This document shows, piece by piece, positions 712 through 26,015 of a stretch of 64,000 bases of DNA (the stretch's first letter is position 1; each line of letters begins with the position of its first letter). The notes under the pieces were generated by a model. It saw only the letters and a program-made list of their open reading frames with translations, was not told the DNA's origin and did not search any database. The position numbers were made by a program, and so were the translations under genes. The DNA comes from Podaxis mareebaensis (taxonomy: Eukaryota; Basidiomycota; Agaricomycetes; Agaricales; Agaricaceae): contig JAEUWP010000547.1 in NCBI GenBank assembly GCA_018524725.1, forward strand, positions 26,204-90,203, given 5' to 3'.

Positions 712-835
712 TGGTTCGTCTGACGGGAGACATGGAAGAAGGGTGAAGATATATGGGCGCGCTCAGCGACGAAGGCTTTCGAAGACTATTGCGGCACGTG
801 CGTGACATGCATTATGGCACCCAAATCAAGCCAGA

Positions 836-1768: not shown

Positions 1769-2008
1769 AGTAAGGGGGAAGGGGGTAGTCGCATTCCATC
1801 ATTTATTTCCTCCCCTTTAACCCTTCATCCGCGCATTTGATCAATGACCACTCATGGAGACCTGGTGGAAGACGCGTGCAAGATCTGTGTGGCAAGGACG
1901 CGGCCCCGGCAATTACCGGATTAAACAAGACTAAACAACGCCGGCGTTGAATGATTTGTGTATAGCCCGCCGACATCAAGACCAGCCCCGTTCCCTCAAG
2001 ACTTTCCG

Positions 2009-2748: not shown

Positions 2749-3035
2749 GCCGGGCACTTGTATTCACATTGCTATGTCCATGTTTTGTCCATGCATTTAC
2801 GCACATGCAACATGCGTTTCCGTTCTCTCTGTAAGATAGCCAATGCTGCATCATACAAGCCCGTATGACGAAACCAGATGGGCTGTCACAGTTGGCCGAT
2901 CACTAGTAATGATACCTGGAGTACCCACCTCGGGAGGTTACTGACTGCTTCTATCTCATTCTCAATATTTTAGATTAATTGATTTCGAACAATATCGACA
3001 CAGAAAGCTGGCATACGGAAGATGTTGATCTGTCT

Positions 3036-4163
3036 TCAGCGAGCAAAGGAGAAATTGATATTGTTCCCTGACCCGGAAACGTTAAAGCTATCATCTCTGA
3101 CAGTGTGGTTCATATCTCCTCCAACATAGCTATAACTTATGTTGGCGCCCGGAGCAATATGGTTCTGCACGTTTGCAAAACTGTTCGTTCCAGAAGCCGG
3201 GAATCCGGCCGGATCACCCATCGCGACATTCATCAGCTGAGACTGTCGTGCTTCGTCTCGAAGTCGCCGGCGTTCCGCTCTGGCCTGCGATCGTGCAGAT
3301 TTGGGTGGCTGCATAGGTGATGCTTGCGGCTGCGGCACCTCAGGCTGTGGCATTTGGAGAGGGGGCTGTGATGTTTTTTGTTGTTCCAGCAATTCTGCTA
3401 GTTGGGTGCTCAACGTTGCCAGTTGTTTGCGCACTTCAATATCGGATTGTAGCTGAAGCGAGCCTCAGTTTGACAGGACACGTCACCAACAGCAATGCAA
3501 GGAAACTCACTCCAAAGAGGCTGATAGCGTGTTGCAGGCGACTCCGACACTCCAGGATGGTTTCTTGGTCCACTTGATGGTGCAAAATTCTTTTCATTAG
3601 GGAACGCTTCTTCACATGTTTCTTGACACAGGCTTCTATGGCTTGCATATCCCTGTGTGTGAACTGAGCGTCAATTGACTTATCGAGAGGAAAACGGCGC
3701 GACGTACTCCACAAGTTGATTGGCGTCCTGCTGTAGTACTGCAAGGCCAACAGAGGCGATCTGCTCACTCTGAGAAACGTTTACTCTCTGAATGACGGTA
3801 ACCATAATGAGGCAGGAATCCCTTCCTATTGAGATAAATTCCTCTTTGTTGGCCTTCACCGTCTGAAATGCACGTTAAGGATCAGGCTGGGTGACATAAA
3901 CGTGTTATCCTCACCTGGGCAATATTGATGATTGAGAGGGCAATACCAGCTGCCACAGCAATTCCTGGTACTGGGGCGAAGTCGCCCGCAGTCTGGAGCA
4001 ACCGCAGGGCGTGCTCGCCGATAATGACAGCTGTCGACAATATGAAGCCCTTTGAAGTCAAATCATCATTAACGGTATCAAGCAGACCCATACCTGGGTT
4101 ACCCATCGGGCCTTTGAAGACCTGGAGGCAAGTATGATGGGAAGAGGTGTGCAGGAAGATCAA
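3036..4163 (-). CDS. Agaricomycete hypothetical protein with coiled coil and GGDMN tail
   Basis: At least four exons can be joined. Exon A encodes MGNPGMGLLDTVNDDLTSKG and then a hydrophobic GIAVAAGIALSIINIAQ. Exon B has VKANKEEFISIGRDSCLIMV. The next encodes QIASVGLAVLQQDANQLVEY, followed by a basic HRDMQAIEACVKKHVKKRSL segment and a helix ending SRLQHAISLFG. The last encodes VRKQLATLSTQLAELLEQQ, a Gln/Pro-rich linker, an Arg-rich stretch (RAERRRLRDEARQSQ) and a tail containing YVGGDMNHTVRDDSFNVSG. Proteins of this layout are common and unnamed in mushrooms. GGD(M/I)N motifs also occur near the N-termini of fungal NLR-like proteins, so a link to immunity or cell-death signalling is possible but is my inference. 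The 5' end is uncertain: the start could be internal (MGNPGMG) or in a further upstream exon. Confidence 0.6.
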
Positions 4164-4423
4164 CGCCCGCTTATGTCCACGGGTGACAAATATATTAAGA
4201 TGTGGTGCTTCGGGCGTCTATGTAAAGACGCGGGGGGCGATGTGGGAAGACACAACTTGTGATGGGCGATGCATTCTGTCCGTTGAGCTTTTTAAATGAT
4301 GAGTCGGACCTGAAAAGTCATGGTGAGGTAGAAGTGGCTGTGGAGGCGCGTGGACAAACGCAACACAATTGGACACGCGTCTTGCCTTCCTACCATCACA
4401 ATACAATTGGCCAATAATCCGTC

Positions 4424-7400: not shown

Positions 7401-8241
7401 ATGCAACGTCAATTTGGCAGAACGAACGTCTCTAGGCGGTGTGGATGTAATCGTTGACCCTGACTCGGCTATCATCGTGGTTTCCCTGTTCACTCTTCCG
7501 GCACATGGAAACCAGCTAGTGGATCAAATATCGGAGCTCTCTTGGAGGTTTCTACGTATACTCATCATACTCGAAGCTTATCCTGAAACACTTGCGTTGA
7601 GACCGCCGAAATCGACTACGGATACACCGAACATCTCGGCGTATACTCCGCCTATCTTGAAAGCGATCAGGAAGCTGAAGCGGGATATAGTTATAGTAGA
7701 GGCATGCGGGAAAAAGAGAACGGAGTGTATGGTTGAATATGCTTTTGCGAACAATCCGTTGGAGGCGGCGAAGCTCACGAGGTATTTTGGGGACCTTGCT
7801 GAGGAGAGAGATCAGAGTGGTGGTCTTTTGTGGAAATCGAGGGAATGGTTAGAGTTGGAAGTGTTTCCGGTTTGTTCCCATAAACTCTTTGTTGGAAGCA
7901 TTGACGAAGCAGTGGAATGGGTGCGCAGGACGAAGAGGATTTGGCCAAACTCGGGGGAATGAATCGGATGTCCGCTACGATCCTCCTATGCAAAGCGAGT
8001 GGGGACGAAATCTTGAGTATGTTGCCTGAAGAAAGAATGGAAGCATTTGGGCTCTTGGTTGGGTTTGATACTGTGGTATGTCCTCCGTATGTCATGCTGG
8101 ACCTTGCTAATCCATGGACAGAAACTGTTGAACGATGACCTTGACGGTCTATTCAGAACAGATGAACGAGAAGCGGAGCCTTCGGCCATTGCTTTATCGG
8201 AATGTTCCTGGCCAGGTGGAGTCAGCCAGTCAGAAGATTGA
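4424..8241 (+). CDS. Large multi-exon protein with XPF-like and HhH C-terminus; possible SHOC1/ZIP2 homologue
   Basis: The gene begins MGSLTSDDHLRQHIHQLLYN (ATG 4424). Exon 1 ends at 4823 with a GTATGA donor, and exon 2 starts at 4880 (HPPLCIPELLSPILTRRS). Further exons carry VAWALKAEEREEVRDLLKHV, an acidic middle region (CDSDWDSLGAEIERLCPNED), and a long exon from about 6,922. The C-terminal half has GGVDVIVDPDSAIIVVSLFT, a buried strand of an XPF-nuclease-like fold, and later LKRDIVIVEACGKKRTECMV. It ends in a helix-hairpin-helix-like DEEDLAKLGGMNRMSATILL and PEERMEAFGLLVGFDT. An XPF-like core without the ERKxxxD catalytic motif plus an HhH tail fits SHOC1/ZIP2, a ZMM-group protein that promotes meiotic crossovers. 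The assignment rests on fold pattern only. The internal exon count and the junction near 7,900 are not settled. It converges on the minus-strand gene at 8,393. Confidence 0.5.
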
Positions 8242-8392
8242 GAATATGAATCGTCTAATAGTACAAGGCATATGACGATACTGATAGCGTACATAGGTGA
8301 GGGAAACCGATGCATCGGAGACAGCACTATCGCTGTGTAGCAATAATATTCTAAATGGACGTGTAGTGTTTTGAGGCGCTGCTCGAATTCAA

Positions 8393-9705
8393 TCACACGG
8401 CCACCGAGGCGTTCGTGGCCAGTCTCTCCTTTTGAAGTCGAAGTCTCATTCGTTTTTGAGCAATCTCTACCTCGAGTGCCTCCTGCTGCTCTGCCGACAT
8501 GGTTGCAATATACGGAGCTAATTGCTCTAGGGGCGCCTATCAGTTGTGACGTCGAAATGCTTGGCCCAACCGTACCAGATCTCAATGTAGAAGGGAAGTG
8601 ATCCTCTAAGGATGTTGTGTTGATGGGCTGCTCTCCGTTCGCGAACCGATTAGGGGCCTCATCCTGAGGCTCTTCTGCGGATGGTGGTGGCACGGGTGTT
8701 ATTGGGTCCCGGACTGATATTTTCACGCCAACTTTTTGAGCTCCCGCTTCGTGGCTCTGGGTAGGAACTCCCATATTTCCTCCAAGTAGAGCAGCCGGAT
8801 TCGTAGAACCAACAGCGGCGGGTGAATGTTGATCGAATGGCACGGAAGAAATCTGCGGAGGGTCGAATGTTATGCCAGAATTGTTCTGCGTGGGCATAGG
8901 GGCGAAAGGCGGCAATGGTGTTTTGCCGGATTCTTGAGGGGGGAATGCGAACTGAGGAACTCCTGACGGGTCAAGCGGGACTGGTGGAACAAATGGTGGG
9001 AGCCCCTGTTCCATCGGGACATTCAACATTTGTGGTGGGAGAGGAAGCTTCATCCCAGCGGTGCGAAGATCGGGGAGCATCAAGGGATTAAAGTCCGGAG
9101 GTAGCGCGCCAGGTGGGGGAACCATACCTAGATGTGGTCCTGTTAGAGGGAGGCCACCCAAACCAGCTTTCCCTTGGGGGCTCTCAACTGGGACTCCGGG
9201 CCACCTCCCTCCGTTCTTCGCTTCTTCTGCTCTCTTCGCCTTTCGTTCCTTCCGGTCTTTAAGCTGCGCTCTCATATCGGTCAATTGCATATCCAGGTCT
9301 TTTGCCTCCTCTTCGAACATCGGCGATATAAATCCATTGAATGTCGCTAAAGACGATTGGGGATTACCGTCGTGGATATTGAGGGATGGTCGAAGCCGGA
9401 CGTACTGCTTCCCGAGCCTGTCGTCACATACTTGCTGCCCTGCCTCGCTTCCATCGAGAGTGCTTGCGGGGTACCAAACACTATGAAGTTCCGCCAGCAT
9501 GAGCAATGGTTTGGGACTGGATGAAGATTGACAGCGTACTTGTTGATGGAAGCAAATCTCGACCGATAGCTTTGGTAGCCACCTCGACTGCTTGCGATGC
9601 TTTTTGTATCGCGCGTGCCGCCTCTTCCTCAGGATTTGCACTTGGTTTATTCTTTGAGTTGTCACCGTTGGTGATGAAACCATGAGCGCCAGTAAAGAAG
9701 GGCAT
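8393..9705 (-). CDS. Proline-rich hypothetical protein with C-terminal coiled coil
   Basis: The predicted N-terminus is MPFFTGAHGFITNGDNSKNK (ATG 9705), followed by a helical EEEAARAIQKASQAVEVATK. A later exon has FEEEAKDLDMQLTDMRAQLK and KDRKERKAKRAEEAKNG, a charged coiled coil. A long proline/glycine-rich low-complexity region follows (for example PPFVPPVPLDPSGVPQFAFP). Near 8,580 a phase-1 donor (TCTG/GTACGG) joins to an acceptor after CCCTAG. This shifts into MSAEQQEALEVEIAQKRMRL and ends ATNASVAV-stop at 8,393. The uninterrupted 590-codon frame over this region crosses those introns and should not be taken as the protein. The GAHGF opening resembles leaders of other mushroom proteins such as the NLR-like gene at 26 kb. 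Function is unknown. Exon borders around 9,330-9,540 are uncertain. Confidence 0.5.
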
Positions 9706-9983
9706 GATAGCGGAAAGAAAGTAAAAAGGGACGGGTGATGGTTGGGGGGGTTGTGCAAGGGGCTGTTATTGGAACAATCCGCTTCCCCTACCCTACTGGT
9801 CGTTTCCTGGGAAATTCCCTTTCTCAGAACACGACTGGTTGAGCGCTTAATGATTAATGAGCCCTGGTGTCACGCTGAGAAATCCCGGGGTGAACCAAAA
9901 ACGAAAAGAAAAGTTCGGAACCGAACAAGTCAGGGTTTGGTTCGGTGAGATAGTGGCCTGGCACCTCCTGGCACTCGGAGTGC
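9706..9983. other. Intergenic flank left of the nested transposon
   Basis: No gene was recognised. It contains a GTTCGGAACCGAAC palindrome-like stretch near 9,915 and a GGTTCGG repeat about 25 bp later. These may be the promoter of the minus-strand proline-rich gene or the remnant of another transposon end. CpG is still normal here, unlike inside the element that starts at 9,986. Confidence 0.4.
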
Positions 9984-10175
9984 TACAGTCACCTCTCTCT
10001 TAACCCATAGCCCTCGGTGGAAGGGTCGAGCTATGGGTTATGACAGAGTATGGGTTATCAAAGAGGTCGGCTTTTAGCGCCAAATAAATTCATTAAAAAT
10101 CGAAAAAAGAATCATTTCCGTGCTATACTACGCAAAAGACTTCCATGAGCGAAGAGACAAGGCATAACTCGTATA

Positions 10176-10588
10176 CTATATGGCTTTCCGGGGAAAATAG
10201 TCAAGGATACTCGTATCCTTTAGGTTTTCTACCTCCTCCAGATGAAGTTGATGGTTGAACATCGCCAAAATCTGTTCCATTGACCTTGAGAGTGAGTGGT
10301 TTGTGGTGGAGAGATACCCATTGATGAGCATAGAGGCCTTGAGTAAGCTTTGACGGCTTGCGACAGTGACTGGTTCCAATGAGTCATCATCGACATCACC
10401 ACCACCACCATTAATTTCACTGTCTGTGCAAGTGTTGCATTTACGTGCTTCAACTTTGATTTTGCCTTGGTCTTTGAGTTATTTGTTGACCCTTGACGGC
10501 AGCACCGTCATTTCCAGGGCCTGGAAGAGTAGTTATTTTAAATAGAATCCACTGAATTCACATACGTTTCTGCTTCTTGCCCACTGTC
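10176..10588 (-). pseudogene. C-terminal part of outer transposon ORF
   Basis: The minus strand encodes an acidic run (EINGGGGDVDDDSLEPVTVA), then SRQSLLKASMLINGYLSTTN and LEEVENLKDTSILDYFPRKA, ending at a stop at 10,176. The pattern of acidic linker, helical repeat and a short final (T-x-I-x-D-Y-F) motif matches the C-terminus of ORFs carried by pogo/Tigger-like elements in mushrooms, recalled from family knowledge. Its upstream end (GKKQKRM, next to 10,588) continues exactly the sequence broken off at 24,151. The central DDE region is not visible, so I infer an internal deletion that preceded the insertion. Confidence 0.6.
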
Positions 10589-10594
10589 ATAGGC
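10589..10594. repeat. Left 6-bp target-site duplication (ATAGGC) of inner element
   Basis: ATAGGC directly precedes the left inverted repeat and is found again directly after the right one (24145-24150). Removing the inner element and one copy restores a continuous reading frame in the outer transposon ORF, which independently supports this boundary. Confidence 0.8.
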
Positions 10595-11230
10595 TATGGT
10601 GGGCCATTGGCCTAAAAAAGATTTGGCCCCCGCAGAACTTAATAATGTGCTTGTGCAGTATTTACATACTGCCTAGACCTAAAGTATACTCAGTAGTTTA
10701 CAAAATCTAGTTATTACCTTGTCTCATGGGGGGGGAAAACCACATGCACAGGATTTTGAAAATCCCACATGCAACAGTAACCCTCCCTAGAAGAAGTTAT
10801 GTATACAAAATTCATGCATGGAATTATAAATATTTTGCATGGGGTTTTCTGAAAGTCCCACACACATATCATGTATGTTGCATGTATGTTCTGCACAGGA
10901 TTTTCTCAAAGTTCCATGTGTGCCTGCTGTGTATGTTCTGTGTGTGGGATTTTCTAAAAGTTCCACATGTGTTTGCTGTGTATGTTCTGTGCACAGGATT
11001 TTCTGAAAGTTCCACATGCACTTGCTGTGTATGTTCTGCATGTGGGATCTTCTGAAAGTTCTGCATGCACTTGCTGTGTATGTTCTACACATGGGATTTT
11101 CAGAAAGTTCCATTCACAAGCTTGGTCTCAAGATGAAAGGTTGACATTATGTGCATTCAGACTCTGATAGGGATGAGGGCATAAAGGAGTGGCTTCAGTG
11201 ACTATGAAATGGGTATGATGAAACTACTAT
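10595..11230 (+). repeat. Left long terminal inverted repeat of inner element
   Basis: It aligns to the complement of 23,650-24,144 over its whole length. It differs mainly in the number of 49-bp tandem units and at former CpG sites. Landmarks shared by both copies are TAAAAAAGATTTGGCCCCC, AGTATACTCAGTAGTTTAC, a G-run followed by AAAACCACATGC, and AAGCTTGGTCTCAAGATGAA. The inner border is approximate. Confidence 0.8.
10840..11115 (+). repeat. 49-bp tandem repeat, about six units, in left inverted repeat
   Basis: Units share the core GGATTTTCTGAAAGTTCCAC followed by TTGCTGTGTATGTTCTG. Successive TATG landmarks (for example 10981 and 11030) are 49 bp apart. The spacer positions alternate between TG and CA (for example CACATG, TGTGTG, GCACAG), as expected if the ancestral unit held several CpGs. 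The array may be transposase-binding subterminal repeats, but that is inference. Confidence 0.8.
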
Positions 11231-11680
11231 GACCAGAGGTCTGCTATCCTAAGTTGGACAGAACATTCTACATGGCACAGTTGGAGGCTACCTATAAGGT
11301 CAGAAGCAATAATCAAAGAAAGTTGAACTTGCAATCTGGTTTCCACCACTGGTTGGTGACTCCAGGACCAGGAGAAGACAGACACTGGTCAAGGACCAAG
11401 GAAGAATTGAAGACATCAGCAATTGTCTCACTACTATCAATGGGAGTTGGGGATCTTCTAACTGGTGTGTTGGGTAACTCAACTGCAGGAGCAGAGGTTG
11501 AACTACCAGAGGCTGCCATAGTCAATGAAGCACTAGATGATGGCTCAATGATTTCTACATCTGGTGTATACTATTAGCTAGATGATATGTGCAATATGAG
11601 AGGTAAGCAACTCACTACTGGAACTAGTCTCCTTATATGTAACTCAAGGCTTCTTCCAAGTGGAAACTAAGTTATTAAAA

Positions 11681-13112
11681 TCAAATGAGATGCTTAAGGT
11701 GATGGAAGTAAACCAAACATGCACTGTGTGATGGAACTGGCTGCTTCCTTTTCTTATGGACAGCATGATTCAAACTTGGCTTGGAATCAGATTCAGAGTC
11801 AGAGTCAGTAACTTTCAGGACAGGTGAAGAGTCAGGTTTGGTAGGGGACTGGATGAGAAGGGGATAGTCAGCTATGTTTTGCTGTTTCCACTTGTCAATA
11901 ACAGGCTCAGGGATACCTCCAGAGAATGCTAACACAATAGGTTTATGTCAGAATAAGACATCAGGGTATAAGGTACAACAACATACCAATGTAGAGTACT
12001 GATTATTTGCTGTTGGTTTTATAGTCACAATGGCAAAGAGTTTGTATATCTTTACCAGTTGGAGTATCACAGTTGTCAACATGAAGTGTGTGTTGTACCT
12101 TGCAGAGAATCTGCCAGGAAGGTCCAAACAAATGATTGCTTGAGCTAGCTGGAATTGCCTCATTTTGCAACCATGCAAAGGCAATTGGAAAAAGAGCCAA
12201 AAGTTTCTCTTCAACCTGTTCATGAGTCCAGGAAGCTTGGAAGATGATCAGATTATCCTCCATAGCCCTAATGACAAGCCCAGCCTCCTCCAGGTTCCTC
12301 AAGTCAAGAATAGTAAAGTTTGTCTTTGAGATTCAATATCTCTGTCCCATGATAGGAGCAGGAATAACCTATTCAAAATTAAGCAAGGGGCTCCATTGCA
12401 TATAGATACAGAAAATAGACATACCAATTCAATCTTCTCAGAAAGAATAATTATCTTTCCAATTTGGACTTCTGCACTGGTCATGGAGACTGCCTTGAAG
12501 AAATGTGAGCATTTGGACCCAAAAAGATATAATCAATCTTACCTGCTTTTTCATCTGAACCTTCTTCCCACCTTGAATAGATGCTCTGGTGACTTTATGA
12601 AGGCCCACCTTTGTCTCTTGCTGAGCACAAGTTATAGCATTCTGAGCAGAGGAAGGTGATGCAAAGGGGAGAGCATCCAAGGACTTGAATAAATCCCATG
12701 ATGCTCCATCACTACTCTGATTGCTGTGGTGAGAAGACCTCCAGTCTCACAAGGTATCCAGAAGTGAAGATGATTGAAGCTGAGTAGACATAGGAGTAGG
12801 TGAGGAAGAGGAAAGAGAACTGAATAAAAGTGATGATGGTAGCTAGGAAGATGCCTTCACAGCTTGAGGCTGTGTAACTGGACCAAATACATCAGAAGTA
12901 GAAGAGAAAGAACCATCAGCAGAGTCAGAGTCGGGTTCACTTTCCTGCTATATGGTGAGGTATGGTTGTTGAATTTGAGAGGGTGGAGGGGCTGTATCAT
13001 GTTGAATACACCTTCACTGAGGTCACTGGGTAGTGTAATGCTGAGTCCAGTGGGGTGTCTGGTTGGAAGTAGAACTGTAGTTGTAGGAACCAAACTGTGG
13101 CATTGTCAATGA
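11681..13112 (-). pseudogene. Degraded Agaricomycete transposon-associated ORF, unknown function
   Basis: The minus strand opens MPQFGSYNYSSTSNQTPHW near 13,110. It continues in pieces through ITCAQQETKVGLHKVTRASI and then EEAGLVIRAMEDNLIIFQAS, with WTHEQVEEKLLALFPIAFAW. It ends with AFSGGIPEPVIDKWKQQNIA and a Ser/Glu-rich tail. The middle part, a short alpha/beta stretch with an ASWT..VE..L..LFP motif, resembles an unnamed family often found beside transposon genes in mushrooms; I know no function for it. Several stops and probable introns break the frame. It lies about 250 bp downstream of the integrase gene on the same strand, so the two could have been expressed together. Naming it a transposition partner would be speculation. 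Confidence 0.4.
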
Positions 13113-13367
13113 AGGAGAAGCAAGAAAGTGAGCCAAATGAGTGAGTAATTAGGAAGAAAAAGTAGGTAGATAGGGGAAAAAGAAATCACTAGAATATTTT
13201 GTATATATATGCCTTTAAGCCCTACTTTCTAAGATATATGTCAGTAGATAGAGAGCCTGAACCCATAACTCAGATCATTTCAGCCACACTGCATTGGATA
13301 AGCTAACACATATAGAACTACATCCTTGGCCAACAGCAATATCACCATAGGGGAGGTATGGAGAAGT

Positions 13368-15190
13368 CTATTCTGAAGGATGAATGCCATAACCTAAGGG
13401 TATACAGTGCTCTAACTGAAGCTTCTCCAATCCAGAAGCAAACAGGATCTTCTCTGCCTCTGTAAATGGACAGTCATGGTGTGGAACAGGGACAGGATGA
13501 GAATAGATATTGGGCAATGCCTCATGCTGAGCATCAATTTGTTTCTGCTCTTCATCAATGTCAATCCACTCATTATCAGGATCTTCATCAAGCAGATGAC
13601 CAGCACCCATCCATCCTGGTTGTCTCATAACTGGAGCTCCAAATGTTCCATAATGTTGGTGTATGATATGTTCTGGAACACCCTCACAGTCATTATATAC
13701 ACTATGATGCAATTGGCCTATAAACTGTAGATCCTGACAGGAGAAAAATCAATATCATGATATACATATTACTGCTAAGTAAAACATACCAGTAGACATC
13801 AGTTATGACCCTCTCCTGACAATAGGTGATGGTTCTACATGGTTTGAAATAGCTCAGTCTTCATTCAGGTTACCCAAAAAGAGAAAGTGGAGGAGCCAAA
13901 GATGTCAAGGATCTTTTCAGTTCAACCCATGTTGGTGTTCCAGGTGGAGAAAAAAGGCTTTCCACTGGTGACTAAATTGGGTTCCAACTTCAACCCATAA
14001 CCTTTCTATCCAGGTATTATGAGTAGAGGACCCCCACATAAAGCTTACATGGTTCTGCCCATGGAGAAGAATCATTAGCACAGACACATCACAGTTCTCT
14101 CCCCCTTGGTCCTCTCTAACCCTTAATGGCACTCCAAACTCATTTGTTGCATCAAGAAACATTTGTAAAACAGTTGATGGAAGATTATTAGTACTAGCTT
14201 TCAGGCCAGTGACCTGTCAGAGACTGGTATGAGTAAGAGAAGCAAATTTGATTGATTACATACTGTCTGAGAAAGCCCATCTATGTAGCCATGAATAACT
14301 ATCCCCCAGTGAATGAGTTTGTAATGCCCATCAATATGCCAAAGCACATTAGGATGGGTTACTGCATATAGTTGGCATGGGATGGCCACTGTCTGCTGAT
14401 GATACTGGATACTGGAGCCCAAGGAGTTAATACAGTTCATAGATGAGCAGAGCTGATGTCTTAAAATTCTAATGCCTTGAGCTAATAGAAGACCTGTCAA
14501 GTAGCATTGGCCTGAGTCAGGATGCTCCTGAAGGTATTGATGAATGACCACATCCAGTGTTGAGTTGGAGATGACTGAATATGTTTTCTTGATTCTATAA
14601 AGCTTAGCATACTTGTTAAGAGTATTCTGGTTAACATTAAAGATCTTGGCCAATTACTGCTTTGAAATGTTCTGGTTTGGACCAAGTACATTTCAAAGAA
14701 GCTCTGGGTTGATGACCTTAAGGGGGTGGCCTTGCTTTCCATTATGAACACATAGAACTGTTTGTATGGAATGAATGCCTTTCTCATCCCTGTATAGTCC
14801 ATTGAGTATAGAATTTAATATTTACTTCATTTGAAGGGTACATACTGTCCTTGTGATGCCAATCTTCCCTTCTCCAGCTGACACACAAGTGTGATAAATG
14901 CCACTGTACACTCCTGAATCCAAACTTCAGGAATACCATCAGATTGAATAGAGCTGTGAAGGCCCTCTAGAAGATCTGTTGCTGTCTGTGCAATGCAGTG
15001 TTCATGAAAACATATTTGGTGCAGTTCTAGGCTACCTTGTGATAGAGCTTGGAATGCACTTGTATAAATGTTTTGTAATGTTTGTATGGCACTGTAAATG
15101 CCTGCTGGCCAGATCCTGTCTGTGGGTAAAGAGGGAAGACTCATTCTCTGGAAGTGATGAAACAGAGTAAGAGTAAGAGGAATGATGGGA
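13368..15190 (-). pseudogene. DDE integrase-core transposase, degraded
   Basis: The N-terminal part (from about 15,190) encodes helices such as GIPEVWIQECTVAFITLVCQ. A helix-turn-helix-like segment follows, MAKIFNVNQNTLNKYAKLYR. The catalytic core then reads VLWHIDGHYKLIHWGIVIHG (first Asp), VREDQGGENCDVSVLM (second Asp), and SFMWGSSTHNTWIERLWVEV (Glu), a D-D-E order spread over about 14.4 to 13.97 kb. The C-terminus (YGTFGAPVMRQPGWMGAGHL, 13.4-13.7 kb) also belongs to the same family. This is the integrase-core family widely annotated in Agaricomycete genomes, with a retroviral-integrase-like RNase H fold that cuts and joins DNA ends. Family members often have W-G-S-S-T-x-N-T-R-I-E-R; here the Arg is Trp. 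Stops and frame breaks (for example after 14,201) mean this copy is dead. It is the best candidate for the enzyme that moved the inner element. Confidence 0.75.
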
Positions 15191-15585
15191 GTAGTGCAAG
15201 ACAAATACTCATAGGAATATTATGTTTATCATTCTGGTGATAAAGGTATATCAAGCACTCATCTTTATGAGCAATGGATGCTCCAATACCCCTCTAGCTT
15301 TCATCTAAGCTCATATCTTCTATTATTACCACCTTGACCCCCATTTATCTCCATAGTCCCAATGGGTGATCTATCTCAAAATAATTGCTATAAGTCTAGA
15401 TATATCTGAGATAAGCCTAGACTGATAGTCCAACTCATGAAAACTAGCAGGTCAATACCTAACCCCTCCACCAACCTGTGTCAGATATCCAGATCCCAAG
15501 TGTTGGATACAAAACAAAGATTTGGTCTTTTATGTAGGTTTTCTAAAGACTCAACCATGCACCATACTGACTAGCAAATTTCAAG

Positions 15586-16430
15586 GTGGAGAATTTCATG
15601 TTCAATATTGATGTTAGATGTCTCAAGCACTACTCCACTGTTATCAACTATATTTTCAACATACCTGCCTCTGGTGAATATTCTGAGGGCACAAAATCCA
15701 ATCCAATCCAGCTTGAAGGTATTAAGGCTTCTTCAGTTGCATCTTTTATCAAATGGTTTAATCACTTATATGTTCTCAACCCCTTGCAAAGGCTCCAATA
15801 TATTGGCTTAACAACTTTTGGTAGTGACTGGGAGCCTTTACCACTACAAGAGGACCTATTGGTAGATATTCTTAGTGTTTCACATATGTGGAATGTTGAG
15901 GCTGGCATAAGCTTTGCCATTGCAAAGTTGGGAGAGCTTTAACCTCCTCTTAGCCCAACTCAGCAGCTTGAACTTGCAATATAGTTCCAAATTCAAGATT
16001 GGATTCACCCTGCAGTGGCAGCTCTAGTTACAGACTCACTTGGTAAGCTTACAAGTGAGGACATTGAGTGAGTGCCATACCAGTCCTTTGCAATTATCTC
16101 AAAGGCTAGGGAAGCATTTCTCTCCTAGAGAATTTGGGTTGCACTATTTCTGCTGCCTTTTCAGTACAGTTGTCAGAGTAGCTCACAGTGTGGATGGAGG
16201 TGGAAGGATGGCTGGAGAACTAACATTGTGCCAAAGATTATGGATTCAGAACTCATTATTCTCCTGTATGATATCCCAGATCTTATCAGACAAACACAAT
16301 TTCCAGAAATCTCTGATGGTTGTCTCTTCTCTGCTGTTAACTACTTGAAAGACCATGATGTATTTTGTAGTGAGTCAATTATTCTTTCTGAAGCATCTAC
16401 AAGTATTTGTAAAGTCTATAGTCTAATTTA
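15586..16430 (+). pseudogene. Transposon-borne BTB/POZ domain gene, degraded
   Basis: The first 119 codons read FNIDVRCLKHYSTVINYIFN, SNPIQLEGIKASSVASFIKW and EPLPLQEDLLVDILSVSHMW, the BTB core of the mushroom BTB family. The frame continues past a stop-rich zone with LSPTQQLELA and IQDWIHPAVAALVTDSLGKL, then KLTSEDIE and SFAIISKAREAFLS. It ends with a C-terminal region containing SAVNYLKDHDVFCSESII. Several breaks are TGA or TAG at places where the family usually has Arg, in keeping with CpG decay. It lies divergent from the integrase gene with about 400 bp between them. BTB proteins are host adaptor proteins, so this looks like captured cargo, although it could be a chance older insertion into which the element grew. 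The start is not certain. Confidence 0.6.
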
Positions 16431-16432
16431 AT

Positions 16433-17480
16433 TTACATGCTTGGACAATACAGCTTGAATTCACCACTCTTTACTGGGTTACCTTCCTCATTGACATAGT
16501 ATCCAATCCATTGACCAACCAAGTTATATAAGGGACATGTCCCAACCTGGCTCCCTGCAGTCACAAAGATGGATTCCTTGATCTGTTCAAACACATCTTT
16601 TCTATTGCATTTAGAGCTCTGACACTTCAATACAACTGCATCTGATACTGAAGAATAAGCCACAGAAAAGTATGAGAATTATCCCCATACCTTGCTTGGA
16701 TACTCCAGTCTAGAATTGCCTGACTTTGGCTTCTTTGAAAAGCTGGATACAAGAAGCCATGGACTAAGTACATGACAACTTGGGCAAGATTGAGAGAGGA
16801 GTTGGCCATTTGGTCACTCTAGGTCTGGTGACCATTGAAGAATAAATGGATAGGCCTCCCCACCCTGAATGAGGAGGATACTTTCAGTACTAGTGCCCAA
16901 GTCAGGATGCAGATACAATATGTTCTAAAAGTCTGAGGGTTTGTGGTAAACAAATACCTGGTAGCAAAACTCCAGCATAAAGGTATGACAGGAGGTGGGA
17001 TGGAAGTCTGGATGAACAAAAGCCATAGTGAGCCAAAAGTGTCTATTGGAATTAGAACCTAAGTAAGCCTCAGTATAATTGAAGAGCCTTACTTTGAAGC
17101 AAAATTGAAAACTTCCATATGGTGTGTAGGGAGAATAAACAGACCCCTACATGTGATAAGAAACAATCCAGCCATAGGATCTCAGTTGAAATGTTGTAAA
17201 ATACTGGGGGGAAATAGCTGTGAAAAGAACTGGATAATTATTGAGTTGTAGAGAATACTGATTAATGAACAAAATTTTATACTGATATTGGTGTCTGTAA
17301 TCCCATATATGGTTCTGGTGACATCCAAAACATTCCCAAATCAATGGTTGAGTGTGTCCAGATGAAGACAATAAACTGGTTATAGCTACCAATGGGAATA
17401 AGTCAGGGGTAGTGGGAGAATATGGAATGGTAACTCACCCCTTAAGCATATCTTCTACCCCCTTTATTTGCATCTGAAAG
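16433..17480 (-). pseudogene. Unrecognised degraded ORF in inner element
   Basis: One minus-strand frame stays open with few stops from about 17,400 to 16,830. It includes PLIWECFGCHQNHIWDYRHQ, then NNYPVLFTAISPQYFTTFQL, and past one stop YGSFQFCFKVRLFNYTEAYL and HFWLTMAFVHPDFHPTSCHT. A further piece (16,663-16,433) holds CQSSKCNRKDVFEQIKESIF with two close cysteines. I do not recognise the family. The length and single-frame openness in an otherwise decayed element suggest a former gene rather than chance. It converges on the BTB gene. Confidence 0.35.
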
Positions 17481-17489
17481 TGATGCTCA

Positions 17490-18660
17490 CCTCCAGGACC
17501 ATGGAGGTCCAGTTCAATCTCCAGAAAATGGATGGATGATGGAGGAGTGGGATTAGGGAAATATACCTTCAAATGACTATAAATAAGCCTTGAGATACAC
17601 ATATCAGGGTCTAAGCCCTTGAGCCAATAGACTAGAATGCAGATGGAGTCAAACTATATATAAAGATAGTGCCCATGGGTATATGGAGTTGATTTGACAA
17701 AGATGGAGGTTGGAATGGCAGAAAAGGGCTATAAAATCCAGTAGTCCCATGATTATGCAGTTTGAGTATATAACATACCTTATATGGATCATTGAGAGAG
17801 TGTTCTAGCTAGCATTTTGGACATGTAAAGTCACCAGTATCATCATCATATTGGACCCCAGGCATCAAGAGGCAGTGGTCAAGACACATTGCCCTTTGGC
17901 AATTGCAGATAACAATCCTGCCATCATTCCCACAGTACATATAAAACTATTGTGTGTTAGGCACTGGGATATGCACTTTGTCAAATTGCTCATATTTCCA
18001 CCCAAATCATTGGAAATCATCTGGGGATCATTAGTTGAATGGCCATTATCTATATCCTGATCTTCCAGGTTTTCCAATTGTTTGAAAGCCTAGAACTCAA
18101 CCCTCAACCTCTTTCCAGTTGTCTTGTTATCAGGCATGAATTTGTGCTGAAGGTGGGTGGCAAGTTGGTACAAGAAGACGAGTGATGATGGTAGAAGATA
18201 AGGTTTTTACAGCATTTTCTCACTCAGTATTAAATAGGTGCCCATATATGAAAAAATAAGACCTGATAGCAGATATTACATTATTCAATGACAAATTAGC
18301 ACAAAAAAATAAAAGATCAAAGATACAATCTACACTAAAAGCTCCTTCCACCACTATTTTCAAGGGAGTGGCCAGCTACCCCTGAAAACATAGGTGGAAC
18401 AGGGAGAGGAAAAGAATGAAAGAAAAGATCATACAAATAGACATATCTCCAAAAAAAAGTATATGCTGTTGTGAACACATGAGTATGGCAAACCATAGAA
18501 TGAATAACAACACTGACTGGAAATGCAATAAACCCATGAAGAGAACCTGCAGAGCAGGTGAGTAAAAGATCACTGATCAGCAAAACAAATTGGCAGGCTT
18601 ACCACAGGAAGGGATAGAGTGGGAAGGATAGACCAACTATATACAACTAAGTGGACATAC
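17490..18660. other. Inner element spacer without a recognisable gene
   Basis: CpG-depleted, AT-rich sequence. Open frames here (for example 17,851-18,060) show no domain I recognise, and no clear repeat structure is seen before the tandem duplication at 18,664. Confidence 0.5.
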
Positions 18661-18663
18661 AAA

Positions 18664-18908
18664 GGGACAACTGACAAAAGGACATAGGAGTCAGTATGGA
18701 TCCAGGATGACAGTAAAATAATATACACAGCTGGGGTGGGATATAGGTCAAGCAAAGGCAGCTGGGAGATAGGTAGGACCCAGGACTGGTGAGTGCAACT
18801 GACAAAAGGACATGGGAGTGAGTACAAATCTGGGATGACAGTATAACAGTATATGCAGCTAGGGTGGGAGTAAAGGCAGTCAGGAGATAGGTAGGACCCA
18901 GGCCCTGG
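18664..18908 (+). repeat. Tandem duplication, two diverged units of about 120 bp
   Basis: Units start at about 18,664 and 18,790. Both contain AACTGACAAAAGGACAT, GGGATGACAGTA or its close variant, GCAGCT, and AGATAGGTAGGACCCAGG in the same order. The second unit is a few bases shorter. No function is evident. Confidence 0.7.
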
Positions 18909-19660
18909 ACAAGTGTGGTCAGTGAAGACATACTTACTATATCCAAGCAAAATGAACTCACCTAAGATGGACATGGAAACACCTGTGTAGCACCAGCCCC
19001 CCACCCTTACAGTCAGTCAGCATATGTGAATATGATTTTGACACTGCCTTACACAAAATGCAAGTAAAAGTGTAAACAAATGCACAGAAGAATCCCCTGA
19101 ATACCTGACTTGCATAGAAAATGCAAGTAATCCCCCTATGATGCAGGGCCCTATATCACTGCAATAGGCCCACAAGTTAGCCAGGGGGGCACCAGCAAGG
19201 ATGAACTCCATTTTAAAGGAGTCACATGCAAGGATGTTTTATAACCCAAGTACAGCCTTGTAGTGGTGATTGGCCATCCCTCCACAAAGCCATTCTGCCT
19301 TACAACCATGTAGGTTATGCAGATGGCATGTTTTGTGGACACCCTTGGCCCCTTGTCTGTAGCCACCCAATTGTGCTTCACCAGGTCATTGTAGCACCCC
19401 AGACAATAGGTATTACACAGAGGTTCTGTGTGACATGGGCAGCCAGGGTTGCTGGTAGATGGGAGTGTGAGAGAAAGAGAAGACAGTCATGCCCATGACA
19501 AGTTGATGACCTGGGAAATTCCAGGAGGGGGGGTGTTGCCATGTATGAACAAACAACAACACAGGCCAAGTCCAACTCAAGTTTCATTTTCCCTACTACT
19601 CCATTACTAACACAATCTATCAATACAGGTATGAATTAGCCAAGTAAAGCCTAGGGTAGC
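18909..19660. other. Inner element spacer without a recognisable gene
   Basis: CpG-poor sequence with short open frames only (for example 19,151-19,381 minus). No conserved domain, RNA gene or repeat array was recognised. Confidence 0.45.
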
Positions 19661-19664
19661 AGAT

Positions 19665-20520
19665 TCCCCTCTTGGACATTTAGTACAGGGCCCACCCCCT
19701 CCTGCCAACAATGACATATTCAGTTTTGCTATCAGGCCCCTATGCAGCCACCCACTAATAATGATGATTTCAGTTTTGGTACCAGGCCCCCATGCAGCCA
19801 CCCACTGATGATGACAATTTTGGCCTTGGTACCAGAGCCCCATACAGCCACCTGCCAATAACAATAGTGATGATGATGACCTGGCTCTGGTACTAGAGCC
19901 CTACACAGCCACCTACTAATAATGATAGCAATGATGACAATGATGACTTGGCTCTGGTACCAGAGCCCTACACAGCCACCCACTAATAACAATGGTGATG
20001 ATGATGACCTGGCTCTGGTACCAGAGCCCCACACACAGCCACCTGCCAATGATCCATTGATTCATGCATTCCTCCTTCCCCCTGTCATGAAATGCCCTGA
20101 GTCAAGTTTCTCACAGTCTCTAGGGACCAACAAGTTGACATACTGATGCAGTTGCAACTTGGGGTTCAGCTGTTACAAGCCCAAGCACATCTGTGGGTTC
20201 AGTTTTACATTGTGAATTATGACAGTGTTATCCACTTTTGTCACATAATTTGTGTAAGTGCACCAGTTTCCTCACTGAACAGGCCACTGAGAGAGATCAT
20301 CATCAATAATGGCAACAATGACAACAATGACAACAACTTGGCTCTGGTACCAGAGCCTCATACAGCCACCTGCTGATGATGATGATGACAACAACAACAA
20401 CAACTTGGCTCTGGTACCAGAGCCCCATACAGCCACCTACTGATGATGATGATAATGATGATGATGACAACAATGATGATGATGACAACAACAATGACAA
20501 CAATGATGACAACAATAACC
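19665..20520 (+). repeat. Palindrome satellite array, left block
   Basis: About seven copies of a 50-70 bp unit: a spacer of GAT/GAC or AAC/CAA triplets, the 18-bp palindrome GGCTCTGGTACCAGAGCC (perfect at about 19,953, 20,013, 20,340 and 20,406; imperfect in the earlier copies), and CACACAGCCACC. The block ends in an almost pure (TGA)n/(CAA)n tract at 20,430-20,520. Open reading frames crossing this block are low-complexity artefacts. Confidence 0.85.
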
Positions 20521-20649
20521 ATTGCTTGGTATGTAAATTCATGCACAAAGGGTGCCATCATATCTATTGAGTAGTCTGTAATGATCAGTGTCATGTGAAG
20601 ACAACCCATATTGCCTTTCTTATATCAGGAATCAAAGTCCCCAAATCCA

Positions 20650-21039
20650 TTAGACCAAACCAACAATAAACAAGTAAGCATGACTACATACCCCAAAATC
20701 TGGATTCACTTTCTTACATTCTTCCAAATTACTCTGCACCATAAATGCCAACACCTTTGTTACAAACTCTGCCTCTACAGCCTTGTATGCACACACATCA
20801 GCACCCCTTGCTAGGTTTGTCTGCCAGTGGGCAGTGCTCTCTGGTAGAGGTGGTGGACACACTGAGGCATGTGGTTTGAGTGGACCTAAGGGAGGGTGGT
20901 TCAGTGGCATGTAGTACCAGATGTATGGGAACTCATTAAGCATGATGCAAACATTTGTTATCTTCATAAAATATATCAATTGTCTTGTTATGACCATGAT
21001 TGGGTAGGGAAAAGTCATACCATCTTGCTGGTAAACCAC
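20650..21039 (-). other. 129-codon open frame between satellite blocks, unknown
   Basis: An uninterrupted minus-strand frame with TRQLIYFMKITNVCIMLNEF, a proline-rich PLNHPPLGPLKPHASVCPPP and AHWQTNLARGADVCAYKAVE. It is the longest open stretch outside the simple repeats in this part of the element. I recognise no domain. It could be a piece of a former gene separated by the satellite blocks. Confidence 0.25.
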
Positions 21040-21231
21040 ATATCCTCAATCAAACAGTCCTTTGTGCCTTTATATGCTCTCTCTGACCATGGAGGACTAT
21101 AAATGCTAAAAAAGAAACTCAGCTCATTTATCATAAATGTCTGCACCTCAATCACTAATACACACACATCAAAAGTGTCATTCATTGGTAAATCAACCAA
21201 GTAATATAGTATACTTCACTCACCCCAGAAA

Positions 21232-21665
21232 TTAATGAACAATTCTTTCCATGATGGCAATGACAATGATGGCAATGACAACAACAATGATGGCAATGAT
21301 GACAACAATGATGATGGCAACAATGATAATGGTAACAGCAATGATGGCAATGACAACAATGGTAATGACAACAATGGCAATAATGATGATGGCAATAATG
21401 ACTTGGCTCTGGTACCAGAGCCCCACACCCACACAGCCACCCACTGACAACAATGACAATGACAATGGCTTGGCTTTGGTACTGGAGCCCTGTGTAGCCA
21501 CCTGCTGACAATGATGATGATGACAATGGCTTGGCTTTGGTACTGGAGCCCTGTGCATCCACCCACTGATGATGATGATGGCCATGATGGCTTGGCTTTG
21601 GTACAGGAGCCCTGCACAGCCACCTGCTAATGACAATGACAATGACAGAGACTTGGGTTTGGAAA
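21232..21665 (+). repeat. Palindrome satellite array, right block
   Basis: It begins with about 160 bp of ATGATGGCAATGACAACA-type triplets. Four palindrome units follow: one perfect GGCTCTGGTACCAGAGCC at about 21,405 and three variants of the form GGCTTTGGTACTGGAGCC at about 21,473, 21,533 and 21,595, each followed by a GCAGCCACC-like tail and a GAT/GAC spacer. Confidence 0.85.
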
Positions 21666-22300
21666 AAACCTCACTGAGTATGTATATTCATTTTGTCATA
21701 TGCTGACTTACAGCTGTTGCTGATCCCCCATTCACTCCAGAGAAGCTGCTCCTTATTTGCCCACTGATATGATCACTACAGAAGAAGGCCTCCTCCACCA
21801 TTGACATGCTACCTTGGACCTCATGATGCACAAACACAGGTAGAGATGCAAATACTTGATGTATATCCCATAGGTATGCAACTCAATTTGTTTCTCTTCA
21901 TTGTGTTAATGTTTCCTTACCCTTAGCTGATTTCCTCCCAGGAAGTAATGCACATGTCTTGACCCCCACCACCTCCTCTATGTACTGTCTGTATGTATGT
22001 ATTTAGTTATGGGAAATTTTTCATGTCACTTGACTGTGAGACTTGAGTCACTGTGTAAGGCCTTAGGCCTCATAGAAGGGTGTTGAGAGTCTTAGATCGT
22101 TGTGCCCAAGTGTGTAAGACCAGTTATATAGGTGCTGGCTACACAAACATAGGGCAAGTTGACAAAAATAAAGACCTAAAGAAAAGAAAGCTACAAAAAT
22201 GATGGCTACTTATAAGTCCATCACAACTGTGAGAAAACCTGACCTAAGCATTCCTACACACTGTTCACTTGCATCTTTGCTTTCACCACATTTGCTGTCA
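21666..22300. other. Inner element spacer upstream of the dioxygenase gene
   Basis: CpG-depleted with no gene recognised. A CTTAGGCCTCATAG stretch near 22,060 and the AT-rich segment before 22,300 could hold the promoter of the next gene, but no motif is convincing. Confidence 0.4.
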
Positions 22301-22306
22301 TCACAA

Positions 22307-23628
22307 GATGGAGAGACAACCAGTACATGAGTGGGGCAGTGACAAGAAGAAGAAACACAACCAGGCAAAGACTAGCTCTAAGGAAATCCAGGAAAGCTTC
22401 TGCCAAAGGTTGAAATACATTAGTGCTACTGGGCAGTAAGTGTTTACATATACAGCATTGTACTAGTGTTTTCATGCATTCTATCCCCATATTTTAGTCC
22501 AGCCCTTATACAAACATCTGGGGCTGCAGTTGGCCCTGGTAGATACAGATCAAACAATAAAAATGACCAATAGCAGCTTGTTCAAACTGTGGCAGCAGCC
22601 TTATTGAACCAAGGTATAGACTCTCTTCCACTGACTTGATATACAAGCTGACTTAAAGCCACAGTATACTTGAACTGTGATGTTTCAATGCTCAAACCAC
22701 CTCAGCCTATAACTCACATCCTTAAAAATCCTGAGCTGGGAAGGCTGTCTAATCCCTCAGTCATTGTGGATAGTGAGGGTCATATCCTGGTTTGGTACCT
22801 GCCAGGTTTGCTTTCTGAAAGTCAACAGGTGATGTTAATTGATTGTTTCCTTGCATTCTCTAACTGATTGTCCTATAGAATGAATTGATCACTGCAACAA
22901 AACACCTTGATCCAGTTCTAAAAGGCACAATCAATGGGAAGACCTAGTGAACAGCACCAGATGCATTCATGGATAATGATGGAACTCAGCATATGCAGAA
23001 TAGAGCCCAAATATTCTCCCCTGGATGGTTTCCCTTAGGTCATGGGGTATGGCCAGTTCTCTCATTCCTTACTATTCAAGCCTAACATTTGCAGAGCAAT
23101 CCCAATGTAGTCATCAACACATCAGTCTCAATCCAAAAGCACTTGGACCATAGTGCATGTAAATGGCTTCAAGGTATCTGAAATACAGGAGAATTCCTCA
23201 ATCTTGCCATTGCCTTCACACATCCAGACCTCCATGATGCTGGTGAAGAAGCACTGCAGAAACTCCAGGCCAGGGAACCAACCAAGAAGTATGCAGAAAT
23301 CTGGACTTCTATTTTTTCTGGTATGGCAGTCATCACCAATCAGAAAACTAAAAAGCATCATGACTAACATGGAGTATATGAATGGTATGATCAACTTGTA
23401 TCCATTGGATCCTACAAAACAGCATCTTTTTGCTTGCCTGAGTTGGGAGCAACATTGGATTATGGGCCAGGCACTATAATCCAATTGTGTGGAAATCTCC
23501 TTCAACATCAAGTGAAGTCATGGGGTCAAGGTGACTGTATATGTTATGTACATTTTATTAGGAAGGATGTCTTTCACAGATTAGGCATCTTTCACCCAGA
23601 TTGGTCCAATACTGCAGAATATCTGTAA
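22307..23628 (+). pseudogene. TET/JBP-like 2-oxoglutarate/Fe(II) dioxygenase gene, degraded
   Basis: The C-terminal half reads in one frame to a stop at 23,626. It has IWTSIFSGMAVITNQKTKKH, then HHD (the H-x-D iron ligands), YEWYDQLVSIGSY, LPELGATLDYGPGTIIQLCG, LLQHQV (distal His) and GDCICYVHFIRKDVFHRLGI. The order H-x-D...H...R and the (ER)ICYxHFMR signature match the fungal TET/JBP family, which oxidises 5-methylcytosine or related DNA bases and is repeatedly associated with transposons in mushrooms. Here the Arg expected to bind 2-oxoglutarate is Cys (TGT, from CGT). The upstream part has PITHILKNPELGRLSNPSVI and ILVWYLPGLLS, then a GTGATG...CTATAG intron (22,829-22,878). A lysine-rich opening (MERQPVHEWGSDKKKKHNQA, 22,307) is probably the N-terminus. 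About six internal stops make it inactive. Confidence 0.6.
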
Positions 23629-23649
23629 TTATTGATTCTGATCTGGTAG

Positions 23650-24144
23650 GTAGTCTTCCAGTTTTAGTGGTTTCATTGTATGCCCTTCATCATCACCAAA
23701 GTCACTCCTTTATGCCCTCATCCCTATCATAGTCTGAATACACATAATGTTGACCTTTCATCTTGAGACCAAGCTTGTGAATGGAACTTTCTGAAAATCC
23801 CATGTGCAGAACATACACAGCAAGTGCACACAGAACTTTCAGAAAATCCTACACACAGAACATACACAGTAAGTATGCATGGAACTTTCAGAAAATCCTG
23901 TGCAAAATATTTATAATTCTGCACATGAATTTTGTACACATAACTTCTTCTAGGAAGGGTTACTGTTGCACATGGGATTTTGAAAATCCCATGCATGTGG
24001 TTTTCCCCCCCACAAGACAAGGTAATAACTAGATTCTGTAAACTACTGAGTATACTTTATGTCTAGGCAATATGTAAATACTGTGCAAGCACATTATTAA
24101 GTTCCATGGGGGCCAAATCTTTTTTAGGCCAATGGCCCATCATA
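23650..24144 (-). repeat. Right long terminal inverted repeat of inner element
   Basis: Complement of the left repeat, about 140 bp shorter because it has three instead of six copies of the 49-bp unit. It is the better preserved end for the AAGCTTGGTCTCAAGATGAA landmark and the AGGGATGAGGGCATAAAGGA segment near the inner border, which is approximate. Confidence 0.8.
23783..23910 (-). repeat. 49-bp tandem repeat, about three units, in right inverted repeat
   Basis: Same unit as the left array in opposite orientation: GGAACTTTCTGAAAATCCCA and two further copies of the ...CTTTCAGAAAATCC... core. The copy-number difference (six against three) accounts for the length difference of the two inverted repeats. 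Confidence 0.75.
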
Positions 24145-24150
24145 ATAGGC
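24145..24150. repeat. Right 6-bp target-site duplication (ATAGGC) of inner element
   Basis: Matches positions 10589-10594 exactly and abuts the last base of the right terminal inverted repeat (24144). Confidence 0.8.
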
Positions 24151-24428
24151 AAGTCACCTGCAGCTTCCCACAACTTCTTTACTGTGAGTTGCTGCACTTC
24201 ATCAGGGGTATCAACTTGCTTTGTCAGAGACTCCTTGAACAGAGCAACAATACAAGTTTCTTCCACAAGGTTGCTCTCATTATCAAGCCATTCTTCATCT
24301 GCAGTTGTAATTTTTTCACCTCTGGACAACCAGGACCTGAGGGAAGTCTTCCAAGCTGATACCTGGTGTTTAAGAACACATAGGCTCTTTTCCAATGTCT
24401 CAAGAAGGGTGGCTGGCTTGGGTGGCAT
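24145..24428 (-). pseudogene. N-terminal part of outer transposon ORF, interrupted by the inner element
   Basis: It starts MPPKPATLLETLEKSLCVLK (ATG 24428) and continues through RGEKITTADEEWLDNESNLV to KKLWEAAGDLP. At that point the inner element begins. The frame runs on into the inner element as a chimeric tail (MMGHWPKKDLAP...) to a stop at 24,063. Joining P at 24,145-24,150 to the sequence left of 10,589 gives GDLPMTVGKKQKR with no frame change, so the insertion is clean. The start at MPPKP is preferred over the upstream MSTMV because related proteins begin there. Confidence 0.6.
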
Positions 24429-24745
24429 GAGGTAGGCAGTCACAAAAAAACACTCTGACACATTTTTTTCTTTCTTTTGGCTGCTCAGTACCATTGTTGA
24501 CATATGAGACTTGCTGTGTTGGATGTGAAGATCATGCTATTGGTCATATTTTGATATAAATCTATTGTATTATGTCATGGGTGCTATGGGTTTTTGGCCC
24601 AGATGACCTATGGGTTATGGGGTATAGTAAAGTTATGGGTTATGGGTGTAGAACCCCCATGTACCAACTCAGTGGAAGGAAAAAGCTATGGGTTACTGGA
24701 GAGTATAGGTTATTAGAGATATGGGTTAAGAGAGAGGTGACTGTA

Positions 24746-26015
24746 CACAACTGGCACCAGCCTCCACCAATCCTTCAACTAGTGCATTGGTGGTCAGGTT
24801 GGGGTTAGTTTTGGGCACATCAGGTCCTGGCAGGGCAGGACTGTCCTGCCCTCAGGGTCTAGCAATGTGTGCTTGGCCTGCTGGATATTGAGTAGTAGGT
24901 GGACAGTCTAGACGTCCACTAACATGTATCCCAATAAGTATTTGAATACACCAATGCTCAGAGGAGCAGTTTTTCCAAGCTCTATACCTCAAATATTCTG
25001 CAGAATTTTCTTGCATGAGTTCAGCTCCCCATGGTGGGTTGTTCAAGGTATATCCAAAGTCAACCTTCGGCTGCTCAAGCAGTTGAGGAATTGGTGCCTT
25101 AGCACAGGCACAGATCTAAAGCCATCCCTAGTTTTCTTGTTATATCATTCGTAGTTCCAGCTCTTCACATTTCTTAGAGAATTACCACTATGCAAGCTAC
25201 AAGTAGCACTGGTATGTATTATGTACAGTGTCATATAGGACCATACTGACTTGTGACTGTATCGGATGAAGTTATTATCATCAATGACAATCCACTGTTG
25301 TTCCCAAAAGACTTCACTTGATACCAAGTCACACCACAGCTCAGTGTCAAGACCACTATTCACATAGATGAATTTTAAGCCCTCGTTCAGTAGTACATCC
25401 ATTATTCTCATGTAGTAGATGTTTGTTTATAGATAACTTCAGCAATTACCTAAGAATTACATGAAGGGGCAGCTCGCAAACATGAGGTGTCTGGGGATAT
25501 TCAGTTCATACAGGAGGCTCATTCAGGAGACGTTGCGGGAAAGCGGCGGTTCAGCGCCAGTCCTTACCGACCGCCGGAGCAACAACGGGAACCACCCCGT
25601 TATCAGCCGTTATATCTCCTGCGCTTGTTCGGATCCCCTTCACTTCCGAACCTTTCTTTTCGATTCTGGTATATACCCTTTCTCGTTGACATGTTCCAAA
25701 AAGTTTTTTGGCTTTCAAAGTATTGGAGAAAGTCGTACAGATCTCGGGGGATGCAACGCCTATAGGGATAATCCGCGTTTTTGGAGAGACCTGGCACCAG
25801 GCGCTTGAGCACGGGAATTTGAACCTCGGGCATCTCACCGACCGTAGAGTATTAGTCGCAGCAAAACAAGATACAACAGAGGATGGCCATTTAACAACCC
25901 TAACAAGGTCATGCCGCATGCGGTCCTTATCAATCTATCAATATCAGGCGAACAACCATACTTTCACTGTCCCCTTCCCGCACCCCCCAATCCCAGAACC
26001 CTATCCGCTTTTTGA
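24746..26015. other. Right flank of the transposon and NLR upstream region
   Basis: 24,746-25,400 is CpG-poor and probably also transposon-derived. Minus-strand open frames (24,852-25,046 and 25,145-25,411) show no domain I recognise. From about 25,450 CpG rises sharply. The 25,460-25,920 segment has overlapping open frames on both strands (for example MSGDIQFIQEAHSGDVAGKR) but none looks like a known family; it may hold the promoter or a first exon of the next gene. Confidence 0.4.

Follow-up and report, generated by a model that had tools for sequence, protein, structure and literature searches.

The 64,000-nucleotide stretch of Podaxis mareebaensis analysed here (the window; GenBank assembly GCA_018524725.1, contig JAEUWP010000547.1, positions 26,204 to 90,203) contains an element of 13,550 bp at window positions 10595-24144. 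It is most probably (about 0.8 by our own estimate) a decayed cut-and-paste transposon of the IS3EU/GingerRoot kind in a mushroom-forming fungus, which captured an AG-type TET/JBP dioxygenase gene together with a PHD-like gene and whose CpG dinucleotides were nearly all erased by the host. An earlier note on this DNA had described the element as a possible new class of large transposon, and its claims are taken up below with the results that bear on them.

The boundaries of the element are proved by copies of the outer repeat into which it was inserted, since these show the empty site. ATAGGC stands on both sides of the element (10589-10594 and 24145-24150), as the earlier note had read. In a comparison of six loci in the host genome (G000; 36.95 Mb in 429 contigs), four outer-repeat copies, on contigs C139, C9, C8 and C146, carry a single ATAGGC in the uninterrupted sequence ...ACTGTCATAGGCAAGT..., and the joined flanks of the window with one ATAGGC match them at 88-95% identity over ~500 bp; of the remaining two loci, one is the window's own and the other, C200, matches on one side only. 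In C139, which lacks the insertion, the open frame of the outer repeat runs over 140 codons; in the window it is interrupted 10 codons before its stop, and the former argument that excision restores this frame is right in that modest form. The right half of the outer repeat (9984-24745, with TACAGTCACC ends) has 40 scored genomic matches, of which many are partial.

The terminal inverted repeats measure 648 bp on the left (10595-11242) and 493 bp on the right (24144-23652). Their alignment is broken into pieces that are 82-92% complementary and separated by indels, and 49-bp direct repeats lie subterminally within them. The long inverted ends described in the earlier note stand, but its variable base was one position off, because the sequence is TATGGTGGGCC at the left end and, in reverse complement, TATGATGGGCC at the right. 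The features in and around the element are:

9984-24745, no strand: outer repeat of ~1.2 kb, split by the insertion, with 31-bp inverted ends starting TACAGTCACC and a 140-codon open frame on the minus strand
10589-10594, no strand: left target-site duplication ATAGGC, a single copy at empty sites
10595-11242, plus strand: left terminal inverted repeat, starting TATGGTGGGCCATTGGCC, with 49-bp subterminal direct repeats
11319-13103 (approximate; start counted by hand), minus strand: serine-rich (by eye) open reading frame downstream of the transposase, which may be a separate gene; broken
13221-15174 (approximate), minus strand: transposase gene with an N-terminal helical region, a helix-turn-helix-like stretch and the D-D-E core PF24764; in-frame stops
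15586-16425, plus strand: BTB-like gene (domain unconfirmed), head to head with the transposase gene; broken here, an open frame of 286 codons in C100
16472-17946, minus strand: PHD-like finger gene in which later THS and C motifs are conserved; broken here
19698-21662, no strand: low-complexity spacer separating the PHD-like gene from the TET gene, composed of degenerate repeats
22308-23628, plus strand: TET/JBP dioxygenase gene with HxD; broken by in-frame stops
23652-24144, minus strand: right terminal inverted repeat
24145-24150, no strand: right target-site duplication ATAGGC

The D-D-E integrase-core gene reported earlier was recovered by a six-frame Pfam search of the element, in which PF24764 is split over two exon pieces of the minus strand (E 3.7e-28 and 4.9e-12). 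The best NCBIfam match of the homologous C93 transposase is IS481 (E 7.1e-11; 42 bits, well below the cut-off of 224), and relatives of this protein match IS3/IS481 models. Protein relatives of the transposase numbered 183, of which 120 were listed; among the named matches listed, PF24764 proteins of ~600 aa are frequent, and most presumably belong to mushroom-forming fungi, judging by genus, a sponge being one of the exceptions. When 32 rows are aligned, the fungal relative P0003 (613 aa) has invariant D318 and E353 and a nearly invariant D261. For the predicted structure of P0003 (mean predicted local distance difference test score, pLDDT, 84), Foldseek returned 25 matches at E <=0.001; IstA, Mu, TnsB-type and retroviral integrases head the list, and the best of these combine a probability of 1.00 with low template-modelling scores. 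Searched against the PDB, the transposase profile had no match at E 0.01.

Copies of the ends were sought in the genome, as the earlier note had suggested, by using 144 bp from the left end as query, and 17 matches were found, the two ends of the window included. Both ends lie on one contig in the window, C249 (1231 bp), C317 (1213 bp), C8 (1227 bp) and C287 (264 bp). A 6-bp duplication is present in four of these five copies, that is, in all four of those above 1 kb (ACCCAA at C249, GTTGCA at C317, TTTTAC at C8), C287 being the exception. Two pairs of ends split across contigs have a common 6-mer (C8/C49, GCACAT; C100/C9, GTCGAT); as three unpaired left ends and four right ends give 12 pairs at ~1/4096 each, chance matches of this kind would be rare. 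The partnerless ends on C136, C198 and C29 are not scorable for a duplication. TA was found at 18 of 18 ends examined, TAYGG at eight of nine left ends (C93 among them; exception C287) and CCRTA at six of nine right ends (exceptions the window, C249 and C287).

These characters can be set beside the published descriptions, as far as the available parts of the sources go. IS3EU elements have TA..TA ends and usually 6-bp duplications; GingerRoot elements mostly have TA..TA ends with a 6-bp duplication and share a transposase clade with IS3EU (PMC10045372). TET-carrying IS3EU elements were described from seven rust species, with 6-bp duplications and TAYGG..CCRTA ends, and one such family from Tuber indicum (PMC12730594). 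IS3EU copies have also been annotated in a mushroom, Phlebopus portentosus (PMC12411881). No new superfamily is therefore called for, because the TA..TA ends, the 6-bp duplications and the IS481/IS3-like transposase match published IS3EU/GingerRoot elements. The alternative of a new superfamily of large integrase-type transposons could draw on the size of 13.5 kb, the unusual cargo, two genes without a Pfam match and one without a protein relative. It is nevertheless improbable, as IS3EU accounts for the ends, the duplication length and the transposase kin, including the similar proteins of ~600 aa. The earlier choice between a distinct superfamily and a stripped relative is thus not supported: ends, duplication and transposase class all fit IS3EU, for which TET carriers have been published (PMC12730594).

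A stripped Polinton/Maverick would likewise have an integrase-type enzyme and a 6-bp duplication (PMC10045372), yet the six frames hold no PolB, ATPase or protease domain, nor a KDZ domain, at E <=1 in this broken, intron-bearing copy, and the transposase is nearest to IS481; this derivation is very improbable. As far as such a copy shows, the former statement that the element is neither KDZ nor Polinton is supported. The KDZ transposase PF18758 has at least 28 matches in the genome, none of them on C346, C100 or C93. Mushroom Kyakuja/Zisupton (KDZ) elements resemble the present one in carrying an AG-type TET with CcTET-like residues, but differ in their KDZ transposase, in 7-bp duplications without terminal inverted repeats (Kyakuja) and in 8-bp duplications (Zisupton) (PMC12730594).

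The TET/JBP-like dioxygenase gene of the earlier note is present as well: Tet_JBP (PF12851) was matched on the plus strand with E 8.1e-12. Stops lie inside the TET domain of the window copy, one of them within the motif. The alignment of the C93 domain with the solved CcTET (E 7e-19) brings His326, Asp328, Gly331 and Asp337 in line and sets the motif HCDRHGSYEWYD against CcTET 326-337. By the residue rule for AG-type enzymes, namely HxD, Gly331 and Asp337 (PMC12730594), the TET of the element looks AG-type in C93. Five TET relatives were found, two of them with an organism name; the closest is in Macrolepiota fuliginosa (69% identity, 68% of the query covered) and the next in Agaricus bisporus (45% over 97%), which would suggest a host near Agaricaceae. 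In a tree of 11 rows, with four of eight inner branches open, the TETs of C356, C162, C90 and C286 group apart; their identity to the C93 TET is 42-46%.

That integrase and TET belong to one element, as had been proposed, is supported by C100 and C93, in both of which gene content, order and orientations are kept. The C100 copy runs opposite to the window copy until the contig end and is 91-93% identical in the three longest blocks and at most 85% in the repeat-rich part. The divergent C93 copy, which starts TATGGCGTCATATTGGCC, aligns in stretches about as long as genes, most of them 64-69% identical and two short ones 75% and 82%. Between C93 and C100, over seven exons drawn from the transposase, TET, BTB-like and PHD-like genes (the serine-rich frame left out), differences amount to 0.57-0.63 at third, 0.22-0.37 at first and 0.14-0.32 at second codon positions. 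A second TATGG-ended family, TATGG(C/T)GC(T/A)CCAACGTGGACAAAAATAAAA, was seen at C93:44618, inside the C93 end repeat, and at C217:21134 and 21689; C217:21398 bears a C93-type end, and a search for the ends of the C217 element found no clear termini.

Across the genome, PF24764 lies on 12 contigs, and the BTB-like gene stands head to head with it on seven (C49, C217, C424, C343, C93, C100 and C346) and occurs without it on four further contigs. PF24764, TET and the PHD-like gene come together on C93, C100 and C346. The PHD-like gene is found on six of the seven TET contigs, pointing opposite to TET; TET is alone on C286 and the PHD-like gene alone on C333, where a Tf2-like long terminal repeat (LTR) integrase adjoins it. 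Three of the six contigs with TET and the PHD-like gene (C162, C356 and C90) are without detected PF24764, an absence that is weak at C162 and C356 because contig ends cut both, the first within the PHD-like gene and the second shortly after it. These pairs could be taken for the sign of two smaller elements, an integrase-bearing one and a TET-bearing one, nested by accident. Such nesting is highly unlikely, given the order and orientations kept in C100 and C93 and the absence from 9500-26000 of any inverted pair >26 nt besides the ends of the element and of the outer repeat. A single IS3EU-type element is preferred, and the recurrence of the pair, three times with no IS3EU transposase detected, is a hint of genes that travel together. 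At C90:80600-80980 the KDZ-associated CxC4 domain PF18717 (E 2.4e-37) lies ~1.5 kb past the shared TET/PHD homology, and TA..TA was not read at the end common to the TET side of the other TET/PHD loci. We tentatively suggest, as a possibility short of even odds, that TET and the PHD-like gene may form a portable anti-silencing cassette, moved as a pair between unrelated mushroom transposon superfamilies, here into IS3EU, and countered by CpG hypermutation.

The remaining partners are less easily named. The BTB label given earlier was not confirmed: this gene has no Pfam match, its AlphaFold model has a mean pLDDT of 37, and its sole PDB match at E <=10 is KLHL22 (E 0.79). For the PHD-like gene, one protein-database search gave 503 candidates, none of them a relative at E 1e-3, and its PDB matches are weak (CHD4 PHD finger, E 0.027; PHF21A, 0.26; apyrase, 0.25); that its THS and C motifs may be cysteine-peptidase-like is our guess. 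Protein pieces of the serine-rich frame are 33-39% identical to C93. The only other Pfam match in the element was Sec1, under the cut-off.

Several observations weigh against the IS3EU assignment. The class was set by published descriptions and profile matches rather than by a tree including named IS3EU proteins, and TET lies on only three of the 12 contigs with the transposase domain. Among the copies, right ends read TCATA (window) and CTATA (C249), and C287 has TATGA/TCATA without a duplication; the right end of the C93 copy was looked for and not found; and C100 is cut by a contig end, has a stop in one transposase exon and carries HxN instead of HxD in its TET. An alpha-kinase gene was detected neither in the six-frame Pfam search (E <=1, broken window copy) nor among the C93 exon proteins. 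All TET-carrying IS3EU families in the available part of the 2025 survey have this gene (PMC12730594); the corresponding part of PMC10045372 does not name it among the superfamily's features.

The window copy is dead, with 4 CpG left in 13.5 kb (observed/expected 0.01) and in-frame stops in its genes. The ratio is 0.90 in 1-9500 and 0.71 in 24745-64000, the latter including other CpG-poor repeats; it is 0.32 in C100, 0.35 in C93, and 0.00, 0.40 and 0.30 in three short copies. Over 9663 sites compared with C100 (four blocks, weaker blocks dropped), there are 673 transitions and 47 transversions; two CpG are common to both, 109 are in C100 only and none in the window only, with 133 opposite TG/CA switches. 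The pattern fits hypermutation of CpG resembling repeat-induced point mutation (RIP). It could also come from slow decay of methylated cytosines with no active RIP-like process, as methylation and deamination alone yield the same change from CpG to TpG/CpA, ~300 of the 673 transitions fall outside CpG-type pairs, and C162/C286 differ by only 271 transitions to 134 transversions. Slow decay is somewhat unlikely, for the window kept just two of at least 244 inferred ancestral CpG at so few transversions from C100. Moreover, the outer repeat differs from C139 by one transversion over 1205 sites, with 18 CpG in both, 24 lost in the window and one lost in C139, that is, 25 one-sided losses. The RIP-like change would not be purely one of CpG, since 156 of the transitions from C100 are at CpA and ~110 before C or T. 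Transitions exceed transversions from 2-fold (C162/C286) to 41-fold (outer repeat/C139) over 11 pairs. Elsewhere in the window, 50001-52000 has 1 CpG in 2 kb beside near-normal stretches, and gag-like and reverse-transcriptase-like (YMDD) frames read by eye at 54560-57297 are probably an LTR retrotransposon.

Insertion and duplication are observed, and from the family we infer the cutting chemistry: the D-D-E transposase, of IS481/IS3-like type, would attach to the long ends and insert the element through a 6-bp staggered cut. The element would have captured its AG-type TET/JBP dioxygenase together with the PHD-like gene, and the enzyme would most likely oxidise 5-methylcytosine on the element's own DNA and so escape methylation-based silencing. 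At this locus the host appears to have won, nearly all CpG having become TpG/CpA and the genes being broken.

Rust TET-carrying IS3EU elements share with this one the 6-bp duplication, the TAYGG start, the D-D-E transposase and the TET/JBP cargo, but hold a PU-type TET between the transposase and the alpha-kinase gene (PMC12730594), in contrast to the AG-type-looking TET, the PHD-like and BTB-like partners and the Agaricomycete host here. The Tuber indicum family is of the same superfamily and cargo class, with a PE-type TET bearing HxE instead of HxD (PMC12730594). TET cargo is not mentioned for GingerRoot in the available part of PMC10045372. For Agaricomycotina, the survey lists Kyakuja, Zisupton, EnSpm, Plavaka and Helitron2 as TET carriers; within its available part, AG-type TETs come from Kyakuja and Zisupton only, and no transfer of AG-type genes between superfamilies is reported (PMC12730594). 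The open-licence literature, with supplements and most subscription papers outside the search, gave no report of TET-carrying IS3EU in mushrooms, and the present cargo (AG-type-looking TET, PHD-like and BTB-like genes) did not turn up for IS3EU in the literature searched. If the assignment is true, another superfamily joins those that carry AG-type TET enzymes in mushrooms, and with a TET carrier nearly stripped of CpG, the protection of carriers from CpG mutation by transposon-borne TET becomes testable.

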